A DNA stretch of 64,000 bases, taken from NCBI RefSeq assembly GCF_900109705.1, contig NZ_FOAI01000015.1, positions 1 through 64,000 on the forward strand. The letters run 5' to 3'. Position 1 is the stretch's first letter. Every line of letters begins with the position of its first letter. The translations under genes were made by a program, and so were the position numbers. The notes below the pieces were generated by a model that was not told the DNA's origin, ran no database searches, and worked only from the letters and a program-made list of their open reading frames with translations. This DNA is from Roseivivax marinus (GTDB taxonomy: Bacteria; Pseudomonadota; Alphaproteobacteria; Rhodobacterales; Rhodobacteraceae). This document shows positions 54,595 to 64,000 of the stretch, in pieces.

Positions 54595-56076
54595 ATCCGC
54601 TTCGCGACCACCATCGCCCTGACGCTCGTTCTGTCCGCCGTTGGCCTGACCTACGAGATCGCCGCGGGCCGCGTCCTCGCTCCGTTCTTCGGGACCTCGC
54701 TGCTCACCTGGACGGCGGTCATCGCGACCGTGCTCGCCGGCTTCTCGCTGGGCAGCGCGCTCGGCGGCCTCGTCGCGGAACAGGAGCGGTCCGCCGCAGC
54801 GGCCCATGTCCGCCGCGCGCTCGTGGCGACGGCGGTACTCATGGCCCTGTCGCCCACGCTTCTCGGGGCGATCCACGCCCTCGGCGCGCGGGGCACCGGC
54901 GGGATGCTGGTCAGCGTGGTGCTGGCCTTCTTCCCCGCCTCGGTGTGCGTCACCATCCCGTCGCCCTTCCTCGCCAAGCTGGCGGTCGAGGCGCGCCCCG
55001 GCCACGAGGGATCGTCGCTGGGCCTCGTGCTGGCCGCCGGATCGGCGGGCGCGATCATGGGCTCGATCCTGTCGGGGTTCGTGGCGCTGCCCCTCATCGG
55101 ATCGACCGCGACCTTCGCCGTGTGCGGCGCGACGGCGCTGCTGTGCCTGCCCTTCGTGCGCGTGCGGCCCGAGAGCGGGACGGCCCCGGACGCTGCCGCC
55201 AACCTTCGCTCGGGCGCGGTGGTCGGGGCCACCGCCTTCGTCCTCCTGGCGGGCGTGGTCAGCGCCCCGGCGTGCCGCTACGAATCCGGTCTGTCCTGCC
55301 TGCACGTGGAACAGTCCGGCGCCGAGAAACGCCTGTTCTCGGACCGTACCATCCAGGCGGCGGAGCGGGTCGGCCCGGACGGCGCGCCTCTCGGGGACGA
55401 CTCCGAGCTCGCGCTGTCCTATGCAGAAGTGCTCTGGGCTTGGATGGACCGCGATCTCGGGCCCGCCCCGTCGGTCCTGTTCGTGGGTGGTGGCGGCTAC
55501 ACCCTGCCCACCCGCCTTCTCGCCGACCGACCCGAGGCCCGGGCCATCGCGGTCGAGATCGACCCGCTGGTGACGGAAGTGGTGCGCGACCACCTGCCCC
55601 GCGCCGCGTCGATGATCGAAGCCGAAGGCTACGACGCCGACGGCGGCGAGGCCGCAACCGACGGAAGGCTCGGGATGGTCCACGCCGACGGTCGCGTCTT
55701 CCTCAACGAAACGGAGCATAGCTTCGACGCGGCCGTGATGGACGCGTTTTCGTCCGACACGGTTCCGGCGCACCTCGTGACCGTCGAAACCTACGAACGC
55801 CTGCGCGAGATCGTCGACGGCCCGGTCTACGTGAACCTGATCGACAGGCCCGACGGCCCCCTGGCGCGCGGTGTCCACGCGATCCTGACCGAGGTGTATC
55901 CCCACGTCCGGGCGCTGCAAGGTCCGCTCAGCGTGCGCGGACGCGCCAATGTCATCCTCGCCGCGTCGCCCGAGCCCCTGGCGGAGCTCGCCTCCGCGCC
56001 GGAGGGTTACGCGCCCGTCACGATTTCGCCCGCGCGGGCATTCACCGATGATCGCGGGTGGGTCGGCCACCGGTAG
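54595..56076 (+). CDS. Membrane spermidine-synthase-like protein, apparent AUC start
   Basis: A 493-residue protein with six or seven N-terminal membrane helices (LTLVLSAVGLTYEIAAGRVL onward) and a C-terminal SAM-binding, spermidine-synthase-like domain: VLFVGGGGYTLPTRLLA, then AIAVEIDPLVTEVV and FDAAVMDAFSSDTVPAHLVT. No ATG, GTG or TTG precedes the first helix, but GAGGAGG stands 5 bases before an ATC at 54595, so AUC initiation is proposed; a base error is the alternative. Reaction unknown; the family is often called fused MFS/spermidine synthase. Single gene. Confidence 0.75.
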   Translation: MRFATTIALTLVLSAVGLTYEIAAGRVLAPFFGTSLLTWTAVIATVLAGFSLGSALGGLVAEQERSAAAAHVRRALVATAVLMALSPTLLGAIHALGARGTGGMLVSVVLAFFPASVCVTIPSPFLAKLAVEARPGHEGSSLGLVLAAGSAGAIMGSILSGFVALPLIGSTATFAVCGATALLCLPFVRVRPESGTAPDAAANLRSGAVVGATAFVLLAGVVSAPACRYESGLSCLHVEQSGAEKRLFSDRTIQAAERVGPDGAPLGDDSELALSYAEVLWAWMDRDLGPAPSVLFVGGGGYTLPTRLLADRPEARAIAVEIDPLVTEVVRDHLPRAASMIEAEGYDADGGEAATDGRLGMVHADGRVFLNETEHSFDAAVMDAFSSDTVPAHLVTVETYERLREIVDGPVYVNLIDRPDGPLARGVHAILTEVYPHVRALQGPLSVRGRANVILAASPEPLAELASAPEGYAPVTISPARAFTDDRGWVGHR

Positions 56077-56565
56077 GACACTCCGGACTGCATGACTGAA
56101 CCGGCTGCGCCGGGAAGATCGTCGGAAATCGGGCGATGGCGTCAATTCCCCCGCAGGCCGCGCGCCATTTTTCGCGATCCGTTTGGCTCTACCGGCGAGT
56201 CAGGCAGCCCCCGTGCCACAATCCGAATCGAACCTGTCGAAAATTGCACCTCGGAGTTGCGCCTCGCCCCGGAGGCTGCACGTTCCGGGTGCGATCCGGC
56301 CTTTAACTTCAAATAGATAATGCGGGCTTGCGAAAATTGAATACGTTAACTATTTTGCAAGAGCGCACTCGCGACTTTATGTCGTGCACGAAATAATCGA
56401 GCGTTATCAATCGCTGAATATCCCGCCATAAACCGCGGGTTGTGCGTCTCATTTCCGATCAACCCCGCCCCAATTTCCCCACAATCCGGACGGATTCAAA
56501 ACCATAAGTAAACAAATGGCTCCCCGAGAAGGAACGCACCTCAACCGCAACAGGATGCGTTAACC
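56077..56565. other. 489-bp AT-richer promoter region before the Roadblock/GTPase cluster
   Basis: No credible gene. From about 56300 the composition becomes clearly AT-richer, with TTAACT and ATAAGTAAAC tracts. An imperfect inverted repeat, TTGC(G)AAAAT and ATTTTGCAA, spans 56328-56360. The length and composition suggest an elaborate, regulated promoter for the cluster. Confidence 0.6.
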
Positions 56566-56922
56566 ATGTCGACCAACATCTCCGAGCTGAAGAACATCCA
56601 GGGTTTCATCGGCGCCTGCCTCGTGGACAGCGAGTCCGGCCTGATGCTCGCCAGCGAAACCAGCGCCCACAAGTTCGACCTCGAGGCCGCCGGTGCCGCC
56701 AACACCGAAGTCGTCCGCGCCAAGAATGCCGCGATGAAGGCCCTCGGCCTCGACGACGCGATCGAGGACATCCTCATCACCCTCGGCAGCCAGCTGCACC
56801 TGATCCGTCCGCTCGCCAACAATCCCAGCGTGTTCGTCTATGTTGCGCTCGAGCGCGCGAACTCGAACCTCGGCATGGCGCGCATCAAGGTCAAGAGCGT
56901 CGAAGGCACCCTCAAGATCTGA
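56566..56922 (+). CDS. Roadblock/LC7-domain protein
   Basis: A 118-residue single Roadblock/LC7 domain. Order: short helix ISELKNI, strand pair GFIGACLVDSESGLMLASE, long helix with VVRAKNAAMKAL, strands EDILITLGSQLHLIRPL and SVFVYVALER, then the final helix NSNLGMARIKVKSV. Such proteins (MglB, GvpR-like, LC7) dimerise and regulate or anchor P-loop GTPases. It is first in the GTPase cluster, with an AGGA site and a long promoter region. Two hairpins separate it from the next gene, so it may be made in excess. Confidence 0.88.
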   Translation: MSTNISELKNIQGFIGACLVDSESGLMLASETSAHKFDLEAAGAANTEVVRAKNAAMKALGLDDAIEDILITLGSQLHLIRPLANNPSVFVYVALERANSNLGMARIKVKSVEGTLKI

Positions 56923-56944
56923 TCCCGCCACGACGACGGGCGCA

Positions 56945-56991
56945 CCTCGCGGGCCCTCCGCGAGGCCGCGCACCCGGCGGCCAAAGCCGCC
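56945..56991 (+). other. Two hairpins after the Roadblock gene
   Basis: CCTCGCG/CGCGAGG (56945-56965) and GGCGGC/GCCGCC with a CAAA loop (56976-56991) in the 137-bp gap before the first dynamin-like gene. No T-run; probably partial termination or RNA processing. Confidence 0.5.
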
Positions 56992-57059
56992 CCGCCCCGG
57001 CGCGACCATCCCGTCCGGACGGTCCAGCCACGCGACACGACACCCAGGCACATTTCCCC

Positions 57060-59030
57060 ATGTCCGACACGAGCTCGATCCGCAAACGCCACCGCGAAGG
57101 TTTCCGCGATCTCAACGACTTCTGGCAGAGGCTCGACGAGCTAGAGCATGCCGTCGAAGAGATGGCAGACTGCGCGCTGGCCTTCGCCGAAGACCCGCTG
57201 GACCGCACGCTCGAGGCGATCCGCGCCTTCGAGCCCTCGGTCAGCATCATCGGCCAGGTCAAGGCCGGCAAGAGCACGCTGCTGAACGCATTGATCGGCG
57301 AAACCGACCTGCTGCCGTCGGACGTCAATCCGTGGACCTCGGTCATCACCGGGCTTCACCTGAATTCCCGCCACCGGCCGCGCGACACCCGTGCGCTGTT
57401 CCGCTTCTTCGACGCGCACGAATGGGACCGGCTGGTCGCCACCGGCGGGCGGCTCGGCGAGATGGCCGCCCGCTCGGGCTTCGAGGCCGAGGCCGAAAGC
57501 GTCCGGACCCAGGTCACCGAGATGCGGCAGACAACCGAGGACCGGCTGGGCGACGAGTTCGCCTCGCTCCTCGGGTCGAGCCATGCCTTCCCGGAAATCG
57601 ACAAGGACCTGATCGACCGCTACATCTGCTACGGCGATCCCGACGAGCTCGAAGAGGGGGCGACGGAAGGCGTCTACGCCGACCTAACGAAATCCGCCGA
57701 CCTCTATCTCGACCTGCCGGGCTATCCCAAGGGCCTGTGCCTGCGCGACACGCCCGGCGTCAACGACACCTTCATGATGCGCGAGCAGATCACGCTGAAC
57801 GCGATCAGCGAAAGCCGCGTCTGCGTCGTGGTGCTGTCGGCCCACCAGGCCCTGTCGACGATGGACGTGGCGCTTCTGCGGATCATCTGCAGCGTCGAGG
57901 CGCGCGAGGTGCTGATCTTCGTCAACCGCATCGACGAGTTGCCCGACCCCGAGGCCGAGACCGGACGCATCCGCGCCTCCATCGAGCGCACGCTGTCCCG
58001 TCTGGGCCTTGGTGACGGCATCGAGATTCTCTTCGGCAGCGGCTACTGGGCGAATTGCGCCCTCGGCGACGTCGGCGCCATGATGACGGCGAGCCGCGCC
58101 GCGCTGGCCAGCCTGCACGGCGGCGACACCGAAGACCTGCAAGAGCTGCGCGCCCGCGCCCTCGAATCCTCGGGCGTTGCGGCACTGCACCGCGCCATCG
58201 CGCGCCGCATCGTGGAGGGCCCGGGCGAGGCGTTCATCGCCGACACCCAGAAGGAAATCGACGCGATCATCGAGATGACCGAGGCGGTCGAGTCGGTGGC
58301 CGGCGGCACGGGTGGCTCCGCCGCAAGGCCCGGGATCGGCATGGCCGAACTGGCCGCGCGCATCGACGAGGTTCGCGGCGAGACGCTCGAAGCCTTCGAC
58401 GAGAACGTCTCGGGCATCCGCGACGCGCTGCGCGAGCGGCTCGGCCGCGCGCAGGAGACGTTCGTGGCCTCCGCGCTTGACGCGCTCGGCGCGCACGTCA
58501 GGACCTTCGGCGCTGTGGATGCCTGGACGCACGATCCCGCGAACCTGCGGATGATGATGAAGACCGCCTTCGCCTCGGCCTGCGCGCGCCTCCGCCGCGA
58601 AGGCGAGGCCGCCTTCGACAACGTGCTCGACGGGATGCACGACGTGCTGCAATCGGATCTGGGCGTCATGCGCGAGACCCGCTCGATCGAGTTCCCCGAA
58701 CAGCCCCAGCACAAGGCGCCCACGGTCCTGGCGCGCACGCTGACGCTGGACCTCGAGGCGCCGTGGTGGCGTCGGTTCTGGAAGTTCGGCGCCAAGAAAG
58801 CCGCAGAGGCGCGCTACCGCGAGCTCATCCTCGCCGAGACCACGCCGCTGGTCGAGGAGCTGGTCACCGACTTCTTCGATCCCGCCGCGGCCCGCACCCG
58901 TGACATCGTCGAGGTGTTCCTCGCAGAGCAGGGCAAGTTCGCAGAGGCCATCCTCGAATGCGTGCTGGAACCCGGCGCGGCCGAGCCCCGCGCCAAGGGC
59001 GCCGGCGTCCTGCCGAGGTTGAGCGCATGA
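57060..59030 (+). CDS. Dynamin-like GTPase 1
   Basis: A 656-residue large GTPase. G1 is GQVKAGKST (65-73), G2-like LPSDVNPWTSV (85-95), G3 DTPGVND (230-236) and G4 NRID (289-292). The G1-G3 gap is wide, as in bacterial dynamin-like proteins. An N-terminal helical pair (20-60) precedes the domain. After 390 the chain is helical (stalk-like) and carries the Trp/Arg motif WWRRFW at 569-574 inside a helical hairpin, suited to membrane contact. The start has only a weak ribosome site. Its stop overlaps the next gene (ATGA). Probable role: GTP-driven membrane remodelling with its paralogue downstream. Confidence 0.85.
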   Translation: MSDTSSIRKRHREGFRDLNDFWQRLDELEHAVEEMADCALAFAEDPLDRTLEAIRAFEPSVSIIGQVKAGKSTLLNALIGETDLLPSDVNPWTSVITGLHLNSRHRPRDTRALFRFFDAHEWDRLVATGGRLGEMAARSGFEAEAESVRTQVTEMRQTTEDRLGDEFASLLGSSHAFPEIDKDLIDRYICYGDPDELEEGATEGVYADLTKSADLYLDLPGYPKGLCLRDTPGVNDTFMMREQITLNAISESRVCVVVLSAHQALSTMDVALLRIICSVEAREVLIFVNRIDELPDPEAETGRIRASIERTLSRLGLGDGIEILFGSGYWANCALGDVGAMMTASRAALASLHGGDTEDLQELRARALESSGVAALHRAIARRIVEGPGEAFIADTQKEIDAIIEMTEAVESVAGGTGGSAARPGIGMAELAARIDEVRGETLEAFDENVSGIRDALRERLGRAQETFVASALDALGAHVRTFGAVDAWTHDPANLRMMMKTAFASACARLRREGEAAFDNVLDGMHDVLQSDLGVMRETRSIEFPEQPQHKAPTVLARTLTLDLEAPWWRRFWKFGAKKAAEARYRELILAETTPLVEELVTDFFDPAAARTRDIVEVFLAEQGKFAEAILECVLEPGAAEPRAKGAGVLPRLSA

Positions 59031-60079
59031 GCACCGCCCGTCGCAGCACCCGCCCGCCCGCGGCAACGCGAAGCGCGCGCCGGCCACGCCTGCTCATCGC
59101 CGGCGAGTTCAGCGCCGGCAAGACGCGGCTGATCAACGGCCTTCTCGGCGGCGCCGTTCTGCCCTCCAACGTCACCGCGACGCACCTGCCCCCGGTCTGG
59201 CTGGTGGGCGGCGGCAGCGCGCGGATGGCGGTGGACCTCTCCGGAGAGGCGCGCGCCATCGAGGCGCTCGATGGCATCGACGTCGCCGCCACGCACCATT
59301 GCGTGCTGTCGCACCACGCCGACTGCCTGGCGCGGCTCGACCTGATCGACACGCCGGGCAGTTCGGACCCGAACATGACCGCCGAAAGCTGGGAGCGGAT
59401 GCTGCCGTTGGCCGACGCAGTTGTCTGGTGCACCAACGCCACCCAGGCCTGGCGTCAGAGCGAAAAGGCCGTGTGGCAGGACATGCCCGAGGCCCTGCGC
59501 GCCAATGCCACGCTGCTGGTGACCCACGCCGACCGCCTGCCCGATCGCCGCGCCGCCGACCGCGTTCTGCGCCGGGTGCAGCGCGAGGCCGGACCGTTCT
59601 TCGCGCACATCCTGCTGGCCTCGCTGATCGAGCCCGAGGACCTCGCACGCATCGGCGACCACCTTGGCCGCCTTGCCGAGGGCCTCGACGCCCTGCCCGG
59701 CCGCGCGGACAAACTGACCGCGGAGCTTGCCGCGCAGCCCGTCGCCCGGCCCCACGGGTCCGAGGCCGCGCCTGTCGCTCCGCCGCGTCGCGTTGCTCCG
59801 GCGGAGACTGCGCGTCCGACCCGCCCCATGCGCCCCGGCCGGTCGAACGTGGTGCGGCTGCCGCTGGCCCCGTCGGGCGACCGGCCCGCCGATCTGCGCG
59901 CGCTCTGGTCCGCGATGATCGAGGACATCGACAGGACGGATGCCACTGCCGTGCTCGCCTGCGTCGAGCGTCTCATCGACAGCCTCGAGACCGGCGAGCG
60001 CCTTCCCGGCGCCACCGCGCGTCCCGAACCGACCGCCACCGAGCCGCGTCCCGTCACCGCCGCACGTGAAGAGGAATAG
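59027..60079 (+). CDS. Small P-loop GTPase-like protein A
   Basis: A 350-residue protein with GTPase motifs G1 GEFSAGKT (26-33), G3 DTPG (108-111) and a G4-like THAD (166-169) in place of NKxD. The segment QAWRQSEK (140-147) is shared with the fourth GTPase of the cluster. After about 235 there is a Pro/Ala/Arg-rich disordered stretch, then a helical segment (about 292-330) and a second disordered tail. Begins within the stop of dynamin-like gene 1 and lies 4 bases before gene 2. Likely a partner or regulator of the dynamin-like proteins. Confidence 0.8.
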   Translation: MSTARRSTRPPAATRSARRPRLLIAGEFSAGKTRLINGLLGGAVLPSNVTATHLPPVWLVGGGSARMAVDLSGEARAIEALDGIDVAATHHCVLSHHADCLARLDLIDTPGSSDPNMTAESWERMLPLADAVVWCTNATQAWRQSEKAVWQDMPEALRANATLLVTHADRLPDRRAADRVLRRVQREAGPFFAHILLASLIEPEDLARIGDHLGRLAEGLDALPGRADKLTAELAAQPVARPHGSEAAPVAPPRRVAPAETARPTRPMRPGRSNVVRLPLAPSGDRPADLRALWSAMIEDIDRTDATAVLACVERLIDSLETGERLPGATARPEPTATEPRPVTAAREEE

Positions 60080-60083
60080 CCCC

Positions 60084-62204
60084 ATGAAGATCGCCCCCCG
60101 GCAGCGGCAGGAGCTAGATTTCCTGCGCGAGACCCTCGACGCGCTCGACGGCGCGGTGGACCGCAAGACCCGCGCCAACTTCCGCGAGATCCGCGAACGG
60201 CTCGACGCCTGGGCCGCCCGCGTCGCGGTCATCGGGCAGGTGAAGGCTGGCAAGTCCACCTTCCTCAACGCCTTTCTCAACATGCACGACTTCCTGCCTT
60301 CGGACGTGAACCCGTGGACGTCGGTCGTGACCAACATGCGGATCAACCTGCCCTCCGATCCGGCCTTGGGCGCGCGGTTCGAGTTCTTCGACGAAAGCGA
60401 CTGGGCCGAGATCATCGACGGCGGCTCGCGCATCCGCAAGCTGACCGAGCAGTTGCTGCCGGGCTTCGACACCGAGGTGCTCAAGCGCCAGAGCGAGGAA
60501 ATGCGCGACCGCGCGCAGGCCCGTCTCGGGCGCCACTACCACGCGCTTCTGGGCAGCGCACACGATTACGACTTCCTCACGGCGGACCTGCTGCAGCGCT
60601 ACGTCTGCGCCGGCCCCGGCTCGGACGCGGGCCTCGACCGGCAATCGCTCGGACGCTACGCCGCGCTCACCAAGGTCGCCAACACCTACATGCGGAACCC
60701 CGAGTTCCAGGTGCCGACCATCGTCACCGACACGCCGGGCGTGAACGACCCGTTCCTCGTGCGCGACGAGTTCACCTGCCGCAGCCTCGACAAGTCCGAC
60801 GTGTTCGTCGTCGTCCTCTCGGCGCACCAGCCGCTGACCGACGTGGACATCGCGCTGATCCGCATCCTCGCGCGGCAGGACTCCAAGGACGTCGTCATCT
60901 TCGTGAACCGCATCGACGAGCTCGAGGATTTCGCGCATTCGGTGCCGCGGGTGGTCGAGGACGTCTCGCGCCGTCTGTCCCGCGCGATCCCGGGCATCAC
61001 CTTCAACATCCGAGCGGGCAGCGCCTACCTCGCCGACCTGACGCTGAGCGACGACCCCGACGCCGAGGCCGAGCGCGCGGCCGCCGACACCCCCGAGCTG
61101 GCCGAGTATCTCCGCGCCACCTATGGCCGTGTGCCCGAGAACCGGCTTGACCGGCTCTACCTCGCCTCCGGCATGGACGACGCCAAGGCCGTGTTGTCGT
61201 CGGTGATCGACAACGGCGTCGGCTGCAATCAGCTTGCCCAGATCGCCGAGGACATCCGCGCCGAGATCAACGGCACCCAGTTCGTCATCCGCCGCGAGCG
61301 CGACTCGCTGCAGATGCAGGTCGAGAGCATCGGCAAGGACGTGGCCGAGCAGGCCGTGGGAGAACTGGAGACCGAGATCGAGGCGATCCGCCAGATCCTC
61401 GCCCGGCTCGAGAAGATCGTCGAGACCGCCGACACCCAGATGGACAAGGTGCTTGGCAAGGCTTGGTCCGGGCTCGAGGGCCGGCTGATGTCGCGGATCG
61501 ACAGCTTCGTCGGCGACCAGCGCCCGGTCTTCGAGGAACGGCTGTTCCGCTCCGAGATCGCCAAGGGCCCGGCCCGCGCGCTGGAGATCGACATCGCACC
61601 GCTCCAGGCCGAGATCGAGACCGAGGTGGTCGGGAGCTACGACAAGTGCCGCGCCGCCGCCGACGTGATCCTGGACAACTGCATCCACTCCTGCCGGCAG
61701 ACCATCGCCGACCGGTTCGAGGACCCGACCGAGAACATCCGCCTTCAGGACCTGCCCTATGAGCAGTTCAACTCCACCCTGACGCTCGCCAAGAAGTCGC
61801 TGCGGGTCGAGATGATCGCCGATCGCGGGTGGGCCTTCTGGCGGCGGCCCGCGCTCAATGTCGAGAAGTCGATCGCCGCGCTCAAGACGCTCGCGGGCGA
61901 GGAGATGCGCCCCCCGGTCGAGAAGATCCTCACCGCCTTCAACGAGGCGATCACCGAACGCGCCACCGCCGGCAATGGCCGCATCCGCGTGATGCTGCGG
62001 ATGATCGAGGCCAGCCTCGCCGAGCGCACGCACCGGCTCAAGAAGGACAAGGCCGAGCTGCAGCAGATCGCCGGGGACCCCGAGATCCAGCGCCGCATGG
62101 TGATGCGCCTGCAAAGCCAGATGGAGGTGCTGGAGCGCCGCCTTCTCGATCTCTCCGCGCTCGACGGTTCGCTCGCGCGCGCGGACCTCTCCAAGGCAGC
62201 CTGA
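60084..62204 (+). CDS. Dynamin-like GTPase 2
   Basis: A 706-residue paralogue of dynamin-like GTPase 1. G1 is GQVKAGKST (51-59), LPSDVNPWTSV (71-81) is identical to protein 1, G3 is DTPGVND (216-222) and G4 NRID (275-278). Long helices from 385 to 470 and 495-545 form a stalk-like region. A Trp/Arg motif WAFWRR (583-588) lies in the equivalent place to WWRRFW. A C-terminal coiled coil (about 645-695) is extra. AGAGGAA precedes the ATG. Two different dynamin-like chains side by side suggest a heteromeric assembly. Confidence 0.87.
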   Translation: MKIAPRQRQELDFLRETLDALDGAVDRKTRANFREIRERLDAWAARVAVIGQVKAGKSTFLNAFLNMHDFLPSDVNPWTSVVTNMRINLPSDPALGARFEFFDESDWAEIIDGGSRIRKLTEQLLPGFDTEVLKRQSEEMRDRAQARLGRHYHALLGSAHDYDFLTADLLQRYVCAGPGSDAGLDRQSLGRYAALTKVANTYMRNPEFQVPTIVTDTPGVNDPFLVRDEFTCRSLDKSDVFVVVLSAHQPLTDVDIALIRILARQDSKDVVIFVNRIDELEDFAHSVPRVVEDVSRRLSRAIPGITFNIRAGSAYLADLTLSDDPDAEAERAAADTPELAEYLRATYGRVPENRLDRLYLASGMDDAKAVLSSVIDNGVGCNQLAQIAEDIRAEINGTQFVIRRERDSLQMQVESIGKDVAEQAVGELETEIEAIRQILARLEKIVETADTQMDKVLGKAWSGLEGRLMSRIDSFVGDQRPVFEERLFRSEIAKGPARALEIDIAPLQAEIETEVVGSYDKCRAAADVILDNCIHSCRQTIADRFEDPTENIRLQDLPYEQFNSTLTLAKKSLRVEMIADRGWAFWRRPALNVEKSIAALKTLAGEEMRPPVEKILTAFNEAITERATAGNGRIRVMLRMIEASLAERTHRLKKDKAELQQIAGDPEIQRRMVMRLQSQMEVLERRLLDLSALDGSLARADLSKAA

Positions 62205-62220
62205 GGACCGAAGACCGATC

Positions 62221-63987
62221 ATGCCAAGCCAGACGGCCGACCTGACGCCGGCTCCCGCCGCGTCCCCCAAGACCCACATGACCGTCGTCGTCTGCGGCGA
62301 GGTCCGCTCCGGCAAGTCCACCGTGCTCGACGCGCTGGCCCGTCGGCGCCTGCCGAAACCGCTGGGCGCCTGCGATGGCGCAGCCCCCGCGGTCGCGGCG
62401 CTTCGCACGGTGGTGCGCCACCGCGGCAGCCCCGGCACTGCGCTGGTCCAGCGCGACGGGCGCATCGTCGAGCTGAGCGAGGGCAACGCCACGGATGCGC
62501 CCGACCTCGATGCCGTCGATCATCTGCTCATCTGGTCCGACAGCCCGCATCTCGCCGGAATCGAGCTGGTCGAGCTGCCGCTGACCACCGCCGAGGATCT
62601 GAGCGAAGACGACCGCGCCGTGCTGCGCGCCGCCGACGCGATGATCTGGGTGACCATCGGCTCTCAGGCCTGGCGCTTTACCGAGAAGACCATCCTCGAC
62701 GTGCTGGGCGAGGATCGGCCCGCGCACGCCCTGCTGACCGTGTCGCGCGCCGACAAGCTGCGCCGCGCGAAAGACCGGGACAAGCTGATGGACCGCCTCG
62801 TCCGCGAGACCGGCGACTACTTCGATGCCTGCCACCTTCTGAACGGATCGGGACGGAACCTCGATATGTCCCACGACAGCGACGCAGCCTGGAGCACCAC
62901 CGGAGCGAAGGCCATCTTCGACGTCCTGCGCCGCATCGGCGGCACGCTCGGGACACCCCCGGTCGAGGACGACGCCGCCGCGCAGCCGGCCTCCGGCGCC
63001 GAGATCGTGAACCTCGACACGCTGCGGCGTCATGGCTCCGACCGTCCTGCGAAGGCCTCCGACGGCCCTGCGAACCGCAACGCGGCGGAAGGAAAGACCG
63101 CCGTCTCGGCGGCCCCCGCGGACGAGGGCGAAGCCATCGCGCCAGAAAGGGTCCCGGCGGCAGGCACGGCAGACGCGTCGCGCACCAGGCGCGTGGCGTC
63201 CGGGACCCTGCCCGGCGCAGGAGGCGCCGTGGAGAGCCAGCCGGGCGACACGGCGGGTTCGGCGGCGGATGCGGTCCCCTCAGCCACGGGCGCCACTGCC
63301 GTGAAAGCGGTGACAGCGAACGTTTCCGCAGCGGCGTCCGGCCGAAAAACGGATGGGGATGCCTCCGCCGAGGGCAAAGCCAGATCGGATCGAGACCGGG
63401 ATGGTTCAGCCGCCGCGTCGAAGGGTTCCGATGCCCCTTCGACTGGTAACGACGCGGCCACTGGCCCGTTGACCGGGGAAGCGGAAGGCACCGGCAATGC
63501 CGCCCTCTCCGCCGAGGCGACCAAGACGAAGGACAGTTCGGCCGCCAGCGCGAAACCTGCTACCGGGAAGAAGCCTGGCTCAAGCGCGGCCTCGCCGAAC
63601 GCTGAGGCCGACGCCGCTCCTAAGAGCCCGGCGACCGGCCCGCTGGTCGATGCCCTGCGCGCGCTGGCCGGTGACATCCGTTCGGTCGAGGCGGCCTGCC
63701 TCCGCGGACCCGAGGGCACGGCGGCGCTGGCCGGCGATCCGGACCTCTGCCAGGGCCTCGATCGACAGGGCACCGACCTTTTCGCACGCGTGGCCGAGGC
63801 GTACCGCTTCGACGGCGCGGAGGGCGAGCTTGCCGCCGTCTCCGTCGTCGTGTCGGGCAAACGGCTGATGCTCGAACGATCCGGCCCGCACACTCTGTGT
63901 GTCCTGGCCGATGCGGGCGCCATGTCCGAGGGTCTCGCGCGGGCCACCATGCGCCGCTTCGACGAGGCCATCGCCGAGGCCTCCTGA
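62221..63987 (+). CDS. Degenerate GTPase with long linker and C-terminal Roadblock-like domain
   Basis: A 588-residue protein in three parts. Residues 18-245 are a GTPase-like domain with intact G1 GEVRSGKST (26-34). No DxxG is present at G3 (ELPLT at 118-122), and G4 reads SRAD (175-178); QAWRFTEK (149-156) matches small GTPase A. Residues ~272-470 are Ala/Ser/Asp/Lys-rich low complexity. Residues ~473-588 follow the Roadblock order helix, strands, helix, strands, helix (LVDALRALAGDI; EAACLRGPEGTAALAG; LFARVAEAYRF; LAAVSVVVSGKRLML; LARATMRRFDEAI). It starts 16 bases after dynamin-like gene 2. Probably binds GTP without normal hydrolysis and links to the Roadblock protein. Confidence 0.75.
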   Translation: MPSQTADLTPAPAASPKTHMTVVVCGEVRSGKSTVLDALARRRLPKPLGACDGAAPAVAALRTVVRHRGSPGTALVQRDGRIVELSEGNATDAPDLDAVDHLLIWSDSPHLAGIELVELPLTTAEDLSEDDRAVLRAADAMIWVTIGSQAWRFTEKTILDVLGEDRPAHALLTVSRADKLRRAKDRDKLMDRLVRETGDYFDACHLLNGSGRNLDMSHDSDAAWSTTGAKAIFDVLRRIGGTLGTPPVEDDAAAQPASGAEIVNLDTLRRHGSDRPAKASDGPANRNAAEGKTAVSAAPADEGEAIAPERVPAAGTADASRTRRVASGTLPGAGGAVESQPGDTAGSAADAVPSATGATAVKAVTANVSAAASGRKTDGDASAEGKARSDRDRDGSAAASKGSDAPSTGNDAATGPLTGEAEGTGNAALSAEATKTKDSSAASAKPATGKKPGSSAASPNAEADAAPKSPATGPLVDALRALAGDIRSVEAACLRGPEGTAALAGDPDLCQGLDRQGTDLFARVAEAYRFDGAEGELAAVSVVVSGKRLMLERSGPHTLCVLADAGAMSEGLARATMRRFDEAIAEAS

Positions 63988-64000
63988 CCGGCGGCCCGCG

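Follow-up and report, generated by a model that had tools for sequence, protein, structure and literature searches.

Why should an operon of dynamin-like GTPases also encode Roadblock domains, and do the two kinds of protein act together? The question is raised by a locus of Roseivivax marinus (assembly GCF_900109705.1), where five genes lie within a stretch of 64,000 nucleotides (nt) taken from contig NZ_FOAI01000015.1 (the whole stretch is referred to as the window). A preliminary description, made from the sequence alone, had reported five co-directional genes at 56566 to 63987, and the open reading frames (ORFs) lie exactly there, all on the plus strand. They are RB (56566 to 56922), a stand-alone protein of 118 amino acids (aa) recognized as having a Roadblock/LC7 fold from its ORF and predicted structure; DLP1 (57060 to 59030), a dynamin-like GTPase of 656 aa; GTPA (59027 to 60079), a small dynamin-type GTPase of 350 aa with G1, G3 and a G4-like motif; DLP2 (60084 to 62204), a second dynamin-like GTPase of 706 aa; and GTPB (62221 to 63987; an alternative start is possible at 62278), whose 588 aa comprise a small dynamin-type G domain that has a P-loop and a G4-like motif and lacks DxxG, a low-complexity linker and a predicted C-terminal Roadblock domain. 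Two of the four junctions had been said to overlap or to be 4 bases apart, which is exact: DLP1 and GTPA overlap by 4 nt and GTPA and DLP2 are separated by 4 nt, with gaps of 137 nt between RB and DLP1 and 16 nt between DLP2 and GTPB. The reading that we favor, and consider reasonably probable, is that the dynamins of this operon stand under the control of a Roadblock platform acting on GTPases.

Is RB a Roadblock protein? It had no match in Pfam, NCBIfam or PHROGs, and the Pfam Roadblock model, which has matches in 3 of 14 control genomes, found none in the R. marinus genome, so the Roadblock call rests on the fold. Among 16 RB relatives, two matched Robl_LC7 (best E 0.016) and one matched LAMTOR5 (E 0.0019). 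When the PDB was searched with an RB profile, the top two hits were both Roadblock chains, with E-values of only 0.05 and 0.16; hence the sequence by itself does not prove the identity, and the predicted fold has to carry the claim. An AlphaFold2 model built from an alignment with 38 relatives (42-84% identical) has a pLDDT (predicted local distance difference test) score of 94 and the element order a-b-b-a-b-b-b-a. With this model, Foldseek returned 123 PDB matches at E <= 0.001. Myxococcus MglB (6izw; E 2.7e-7, probability 1.00, 16% identity) heads the list, and LAMTOR/Ragulator and other LC7 chains are among the best 50. By its predicted fold, RB belongs to the Roadblock/LC7 superfamily, and the Roadblock protein of the preliminary description is borne out by this fold, not by a Pfam hidden Markov model. 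A weak PADLOC match of RB to Hhe (E 0.005) was dismissed.

The operon appears to carry a second such domain. The last 116 residues of GTPB (GTPB-C; residues 473-588, 63637 to 63984, plus strand), aligned with eight relatives, yielded an AlphaFold2 model with a pLDDT of 91.5 and the same element order as RB. Of the 54 PDB matches that Foldseek gave at E <= 0.001, LAMTOR (6ehp_B, 6.9e-5), LC7 (3kye) and MglB rank highest. Because the fold and the structural matches place GTPB-C in the LC7 class like RB, a Roadblock domain is predicted in two of the products of the operon. When compared with the RB profile using hhalign, GTPB-C scored P 1.1e-4 (probability 57%), and its own profile matched GTPB C-termini outside its build set (L050, 2e-14; L051, 1e-7; L056, 3e-9; Rhodobacter CZR27, 3e-8; here and below, L and G numbers denote the locus stretches and genomes compared with the window). 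In the short GTPB homologues (249-288 aa) of L053, L054 and L059, no such domain was found.

The G domain of GTPB is unusual as well. Dynamin_N matched it at 3e-4, below the Pfam curated cut-off, and no PDB chain was found by sequence at E <= 1. In the motif alignment its G3 is degenerate (ELPL, 62572 to 62583, plus strand), and DxxG occurs in none of the 19 homologues (17 distinct places, two of which are represented twice), all of which start with E at this position. A GxxxxGK-type P-loop, at residue 26 in GTPB, is present in about 18 of the 19 (12 commonest forms counted, one row gapped), and an (S/T)RxD motif in all 19. The loss of G3, with the P-loop and (S/T)RxD kept, suggests that GTPB holds nucleotide but hydrolyzes it poorly. 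The preliminary description overlooked both the C-terminal Roadblock domain of GTPB and the lost G3.

For the remaining three proteins, Pfam Dynamin_N matched above the cut-off: DLP1 at 9e-15, DLP2 at 8e-14 and GTPA at 4e-8. The nearest PDB chains by sequence are 2j68, a bacterial dynamin-like protein, and 5owv_A for both large proteins (1e-8 and 4e-8 for DLP1, 1.2e-6 and 1.5e-5 for DLP2), and 5owv_C (2.5e-4) for GTPA. G1, G3 and G4 are present in DLP1 and DLP2 and are kept in their homologues; DxxG was found in 36 of 37 DLP1 homologues (the remaining row is gapped, two Der rows were excluded and a few places are represented twice in the motif counts), in 23/23 DLP2 homologues and in 38/42 GTPA homologues. 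These profiles and motifs mark both DLP1 and DLP2 as bacterial dynamins of full size. The earlier claim of four P-loop GTPases, two of them dynamin-sized, holds, with the correction that GTPB lacks a canonical G3. Both dynamins carry a tryptophan-rich basic stretch that homologue alignment marks as a candidate membrane-binding tip (WWRRFW in DLP1, 58764 to 58781; WAFWRRP in DLP2, 61830 to 61850; both on the plus strand), with WW at this position in 24 of 37 DLP1 homologues and FW in 20 of 23 DLP2 homologues, as read by eye from the alignment rows. No transmembrane helix was evident in either protein, as no 19-residue window exceeded a hydropathy of 1.8. A recurrent Trp/basic stretch without a transmembrane helix would be compatible with a tip that contacts membrane transiently, like that of BDLP1, going by the available part of PMC6104087.

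Do these genes belong together? In a family sample of 295 genomes (DLP scored at E <= 1e-20 and RB at E <= 1e-10; two draws were taken as the same set since their handles agree), a DLP was found in 77 genomes, RB in 20 and both in 19, the R. marinus genome included (Fisher P 2e-11, uncorrected for kinship). In 14 of the 20, RB and a DLP are no more than 10 kb apart (G000, G012, G023, G090, G106, G169, G179, G183, G200, G251, G263, G286, G321 and G326). Of the other six, G324 has RB at the end of a contig, G243 lacks a DLP, and G027, G185, G223 and G315 have their DLPs on other contigs. In an earlier, smaller sample RB occurred in 4 of 61 relatives, and in a class-wide sample a DLP was found in 2 of 289 genomes, our own and one of the same family. 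A survey of named genomes covered the best 80 of 562 confirmed relatives, with 29 loci assigned to Rhodobacterales by record title and 51 to other lineages. In these best 80, a DLP accompanies RB at 18 of the 29 Rhodobacterales loci, and the nearest DLP is on the RB strand in all 18, 96-5531 nt away; at the 51 other loci no DLP lies near RB. The Roadblock gene is therefore conserved beside the GTPases in other genomes (14/20 family genomes, 18/29 Rhodobacterales loci), and this had been named beforehand as one of the points on which the proposal depends, another being the Roadblock fold, which the prediction bears out. The full order RB-DLP1-GTPA-DLP2-GTPB recurs in L050, L051, L052, L057/L079, L072 and L074 (L057 and L079 are duplicates, as are L058 and L073), and in L071 a DLP1 match was located at the expected place by tblastn. 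The same genes occur together in other genomes, which makes a chance assembly very unlikely.

A closer tie is indicated by gene fusions. Among gene-called proteins longer than 200 aa, ten with an RB-type domain were found at E < 1e-10. In at least four loci (L062, L083 in its second copy, L085 and L151), in-frame fusion has made the RB domain the C-terminal part of a GTPA-like GTPase adjoining DLP1 (E 7e-56 to 5e-53), and a more divergent C-terminal RB domain is found on the GTPB-like proteins of L060 and L061. In L109 (270 aa, outside Rhodobacterales) and L095 (209 aa), the domain follows other or unassigned N-termini, and in L055 a small roseobacter-type protein is fused to GTPB. The fusion in L085 looks recent because L084, its sister in the RB tree, has RB unfused. 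These in-frame fusions make a direct physical link between RB and GTPases likely. In L061 (9125-11743), three RB domains sit near one another next to a dynamin gene, one of them fused to a GTPB-like GTPase.

What does RB accompany where dynamins are absent? Within 4 kb of the 51 RB genes outside Rhodobacterales, 26 have both an MglB-like and a Ras-like gene, 5 have only the former, 1 has only the latter and 19 have neither; these counts are possibly low, with RB uncalled in L099, L105, L106, L123 and L134. Scanned representatives matched Pfam Robl_LC7 (1e-9) and Ras (9e-7). No Ras-like or MglB-like gene was found within 4 kb at any of 33 DLP-linked or 20 other Rhodobacterales RB places. The RB tree groups these partner labels better than every shuffle, in a tree of few columns in which 51 of 108 inner forks are open. 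Since Ras-like and MglB-like neighbors occur elsewhere and none at the Rhodobacterales places, RB is, by neighborhood, a family of GTPase partners whose partner class differs by lineage, and the partner appears to have been exchanged in Rhodobacterales from a Ras/MglA-type to a dynamin-type GTPase. The grouping of RB with an MglB-like Roadblock gene and a Ras-like GTPase is itself a widespread cassette (L088 and L099-L149 without L103; hosts include Acinetobacter, Lysobacteraceae, Marinobacter and Microbacteriaceae), in some cases with a 313-321 aa protein, and a literature search aimed at Acinetobacter turned up no description of it. On an Agarilytica plasmid (L016:7983-10054), the genes after RB encode a BLUF photoreceptor, a Ras-like GTPase recognized by eye and a Roadblock/LC7 protein.

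A mechanism can be sketched for a Roadblock-controlled dynamin module. RB would dimerize, alone or with GTPB-C, and the Roadblock dimer would serve as a platform on which the G domains of GTPA and GTPB dock. GTPB, probably holding nucleotide without ordinary hydrolysis, would act as a scaffold or sensor. GTPA and the co-encoded DLP1/DLP2 pair would have their switch state set by the platform, and the dynamins would assemble on, tether or remodel a membrane solely when so licensed. A bolder form of this proposal, which we put forward tentatively, would make the operon a bacterial counterpart of Rag-Ragulator, in which dimers of RB and GTPB-C form a GTPase-gated platform that licenses the dynamin pair or loads it onto the membrane, and which was born of the partner exchange from Ras to dynamin.

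Several observations weigh against such a module. RB and the DLPs were found in none of the eight other genomes of the same genus, and the module is therefore dispensable; both flanking genes of the operon are present in all eight, where they are split between contigs or, in G004, separated by about 309 kb. At 11 of the 29 Rhodobacterales RB loci there is no DLP (some of these stretches are short or near a contig end). Gene order varies, as RB follows DLP2-GTPB in L073 and L076; it lies 3' of the DLP1-GTPA pair in L080, L081, L082, L150, L152 and others. No RB match was obtained at E 1e-3 in L053, L054, L055, L056, L059 and L068; the stretches L008-L011 and L019, from plasmids of Rhodobacter CZR27, Ruegeria and Leisingera, likewise gave none. 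In L089 (8918-10354) and L159 (8005-9426), the RB domain is joined to the C-terminus of a Ser/Thr kinase. By sequence, the resemblance to RB is only weak, both for GTPB-C and for the small roseobacter proteins (P ~1e-4, probability 52-57%). For the earlier proposal of one machine of Roadblock protein and GTPases, the conserved neighborhood, the predicted fold and the fusions are in favor, whereas the operons without RB, the variable order and the Ras/MglB company elsewhere are not.

Part of this evidence might be accommodated if the quartet DLP1-GTPA-DLP2-GTPB were the functional unit and RB only a loosely associated adaptor, shared with kinases and other GTPases. Such an adaptor would account for the quartets that lack RB (L053-L056 and the CZR27 plasmid), for the orphan RB copies found besides an operon copy in G251 and G263, and for the kinase fusions. 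However, it is at odds with the GTPase-RB fusions at several loci, and with the finding that 38 of 42 DLP loci have a domain of the RB, GTPB-C or A5 type no more than 5 kb away. Many of these 42 were chosen for holding RB, the A5 type is the least certain (small proteins of 121-135 aa beside roseobacter-type dynamin genes, weakly RB-like at P ~1e-4), L052 was left out, and L084 and L087 were scored as having none since RB was uncalled there, though located by a separate search. Most of the stretches without RB carry another predicted Roadblock-like domain. We regard the adaptor as rather unlikely. It is improbable, in our estimate, that the operon is instead a dynamin system of the LeoABC or DynA kind, serving stress, membrane repair, vesicle release or phage defence, with Roadblock parts that tune expression or stability. 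The PADLOC profiles do match (DLP1, LeoA at 2e-14; DLP2, LeoA at 3e-9 and LeoBC at 2e-7), and the distribution is patchy with related dynamins on plasmids, but these matches may be generic to bacterial dynamins, and the portion of PMC4159319 at hand mentions no Roadblock part with LeoABC. Very improbable is a chance neighborhood, in which RB and unrelated GTPases are merely carried together on a mobile stretch. The absence of the set from the eight other genomes of the genus would suit it, as would the RB relatives on 28 plasmid records of other lineages (seven examined, none with an annotated dynamin beside RB). Yet RB lies close to a DLP in most genomes that have it, always on the same strand where surveyed, and the in-frame fusions occur in separate branches of the RB tree, which already makes chance unlikely. 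We thus retain the Roadblock-controlled dynamin module as the reading to be preferred.

Other features of the locus and its relatives deserve mention. The spacer between RB and DLP1 (56923 to 57059, plus strand) contains a GC-rich hairpin (fold z -2.40 in the window; z < -2 in 4 of 8 loci folded, and so partly significant), which might possibly be an attenuator or an mRNA-stability element, and no Rfam match was found within 56000-64000. Just beyond the window (contig C31:64108-64473, equivalent to L007:9109-9474), a conserved gene of 106-121 aa (phrog_9174) lies 3' of many such operons; it was considered as a sixth member and rejected because its orientation varies. The gene 5' of RB in L086/L157 was likewise rejected as a partner, as it encodes the housekeeping GTPase Der. 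The motif NCRF(L/M)QG, which we take to be the cysteine motif of light-oxygen-voltage (LOV) domains, marks short PAS proteins that directly follow RB or an RB-GTPase fusion in L062, L081, L087, L090, L150 and L152, and it is possible that such a LOV-type protein provides a blue-light input to the dynamin module. Genes for FHA-domain proteins and PP2C phosphatases lie beside the dynamin loci L009-L011, L065, L067, L069, L075 and L150, which are of the roseobacter type; a Ser/Thr kinase is annotated in L009-L011 (plasmids), and elsewhere the FHA and PP2C genes were recognized by similarity or by eye. The LOV-type or kinase/FHA/phosphatase neighbors at some loci suggest an environmental input.

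The roles and the control of bacterial dynamins are poorly understood, and a Roadblock platform would supply a regulator for them. Bacterial MglA and the Rag GTPases of eukaryotes are both controlled through Roadblock platforms; here, in a gene set that is sporadic among Rhodobacter-type bacteria, Roadblock domains are genetically linked and partly fused to dynamin-type GTPases. A functional link would show that Roadblock proteins are able to change GTPase class, and it would offer a small, expressible system for studying G-protein control of membrane remodeling.

How does the operon compare with known systems? MglA-MglB is the polarity GTPase and Roadblock regulator of Myxococcus and Thermus. 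As there, the gene for a Roadblock protein adjoins those of P-loop GTPases; the best PDB fold match of RB is MglB, and the RB family outside Rhodobacterales neighbors MglB-like and Ras-like genes. However, the partners in the operon are dynamin-type rather than Ras-type, and RB has 16% identity to MglB in the top structural match. In the excerpts available, the MglB dimer is both a GTPase-activating protein and a guanine nucleotide exchange factor of MglA (PMC11016934), and MglC binds MglB, so that Roadblock proteins can bind one another (PMC7949163). The Campylobacter pair Cj-DLP1/2 resembles the operon in having two dynamin-like proteins per operon. DLP1 and DLP2 match 5owv_A and GTPA matches 5owv_C; which chain is which Cj-DLP we presume from the chain lengths. 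According to the portion of PMC6104087 at hand, DLP genes of bacteria mostly come as pairs within operons, and that portion mentions neither a Roadblock protein nor a Roadblock-bearing small GTPase with the Cj pair, a difference from the present operon. E. coli LeoABC is similar in its several adjacent dynamin genes and in the PADLOC profiles that DLP1 and DLP2 match, but differs in that a Roadblock part goes unmentioned in the accessible text of PMC4159319. A figure legend of PMC10933270 lists Asgard archaeal small GTPases whose chain also contains roadblock domains; these differ in being archaeal and of the Rab/Rag type, with no dynamin partner mentioned in the part of the paper at hand. Searches of the open-licence literature, judged by titles and abstract openings, listed no paper on a Roadblock protein with bacterial dynamins, which agrees with the preliminary description in finding no system with this gene order. 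In Rag GTPases, a G domain is followed by a C-terminal Roadblock domain. GTPB is predicted to have this same layout, a G domain with a C-terminal Roadblock domain, alongside the stand-alone Roadblock protein RB, as in Rag-Ragulator/LAMTOR; however, its G domain is dynamin-type, lacks G3 and matches no PDB chain by sequence at the cut-off given above, and two dynamins are further parts of the operon. It is in architecture that GTPB resembles Rag.

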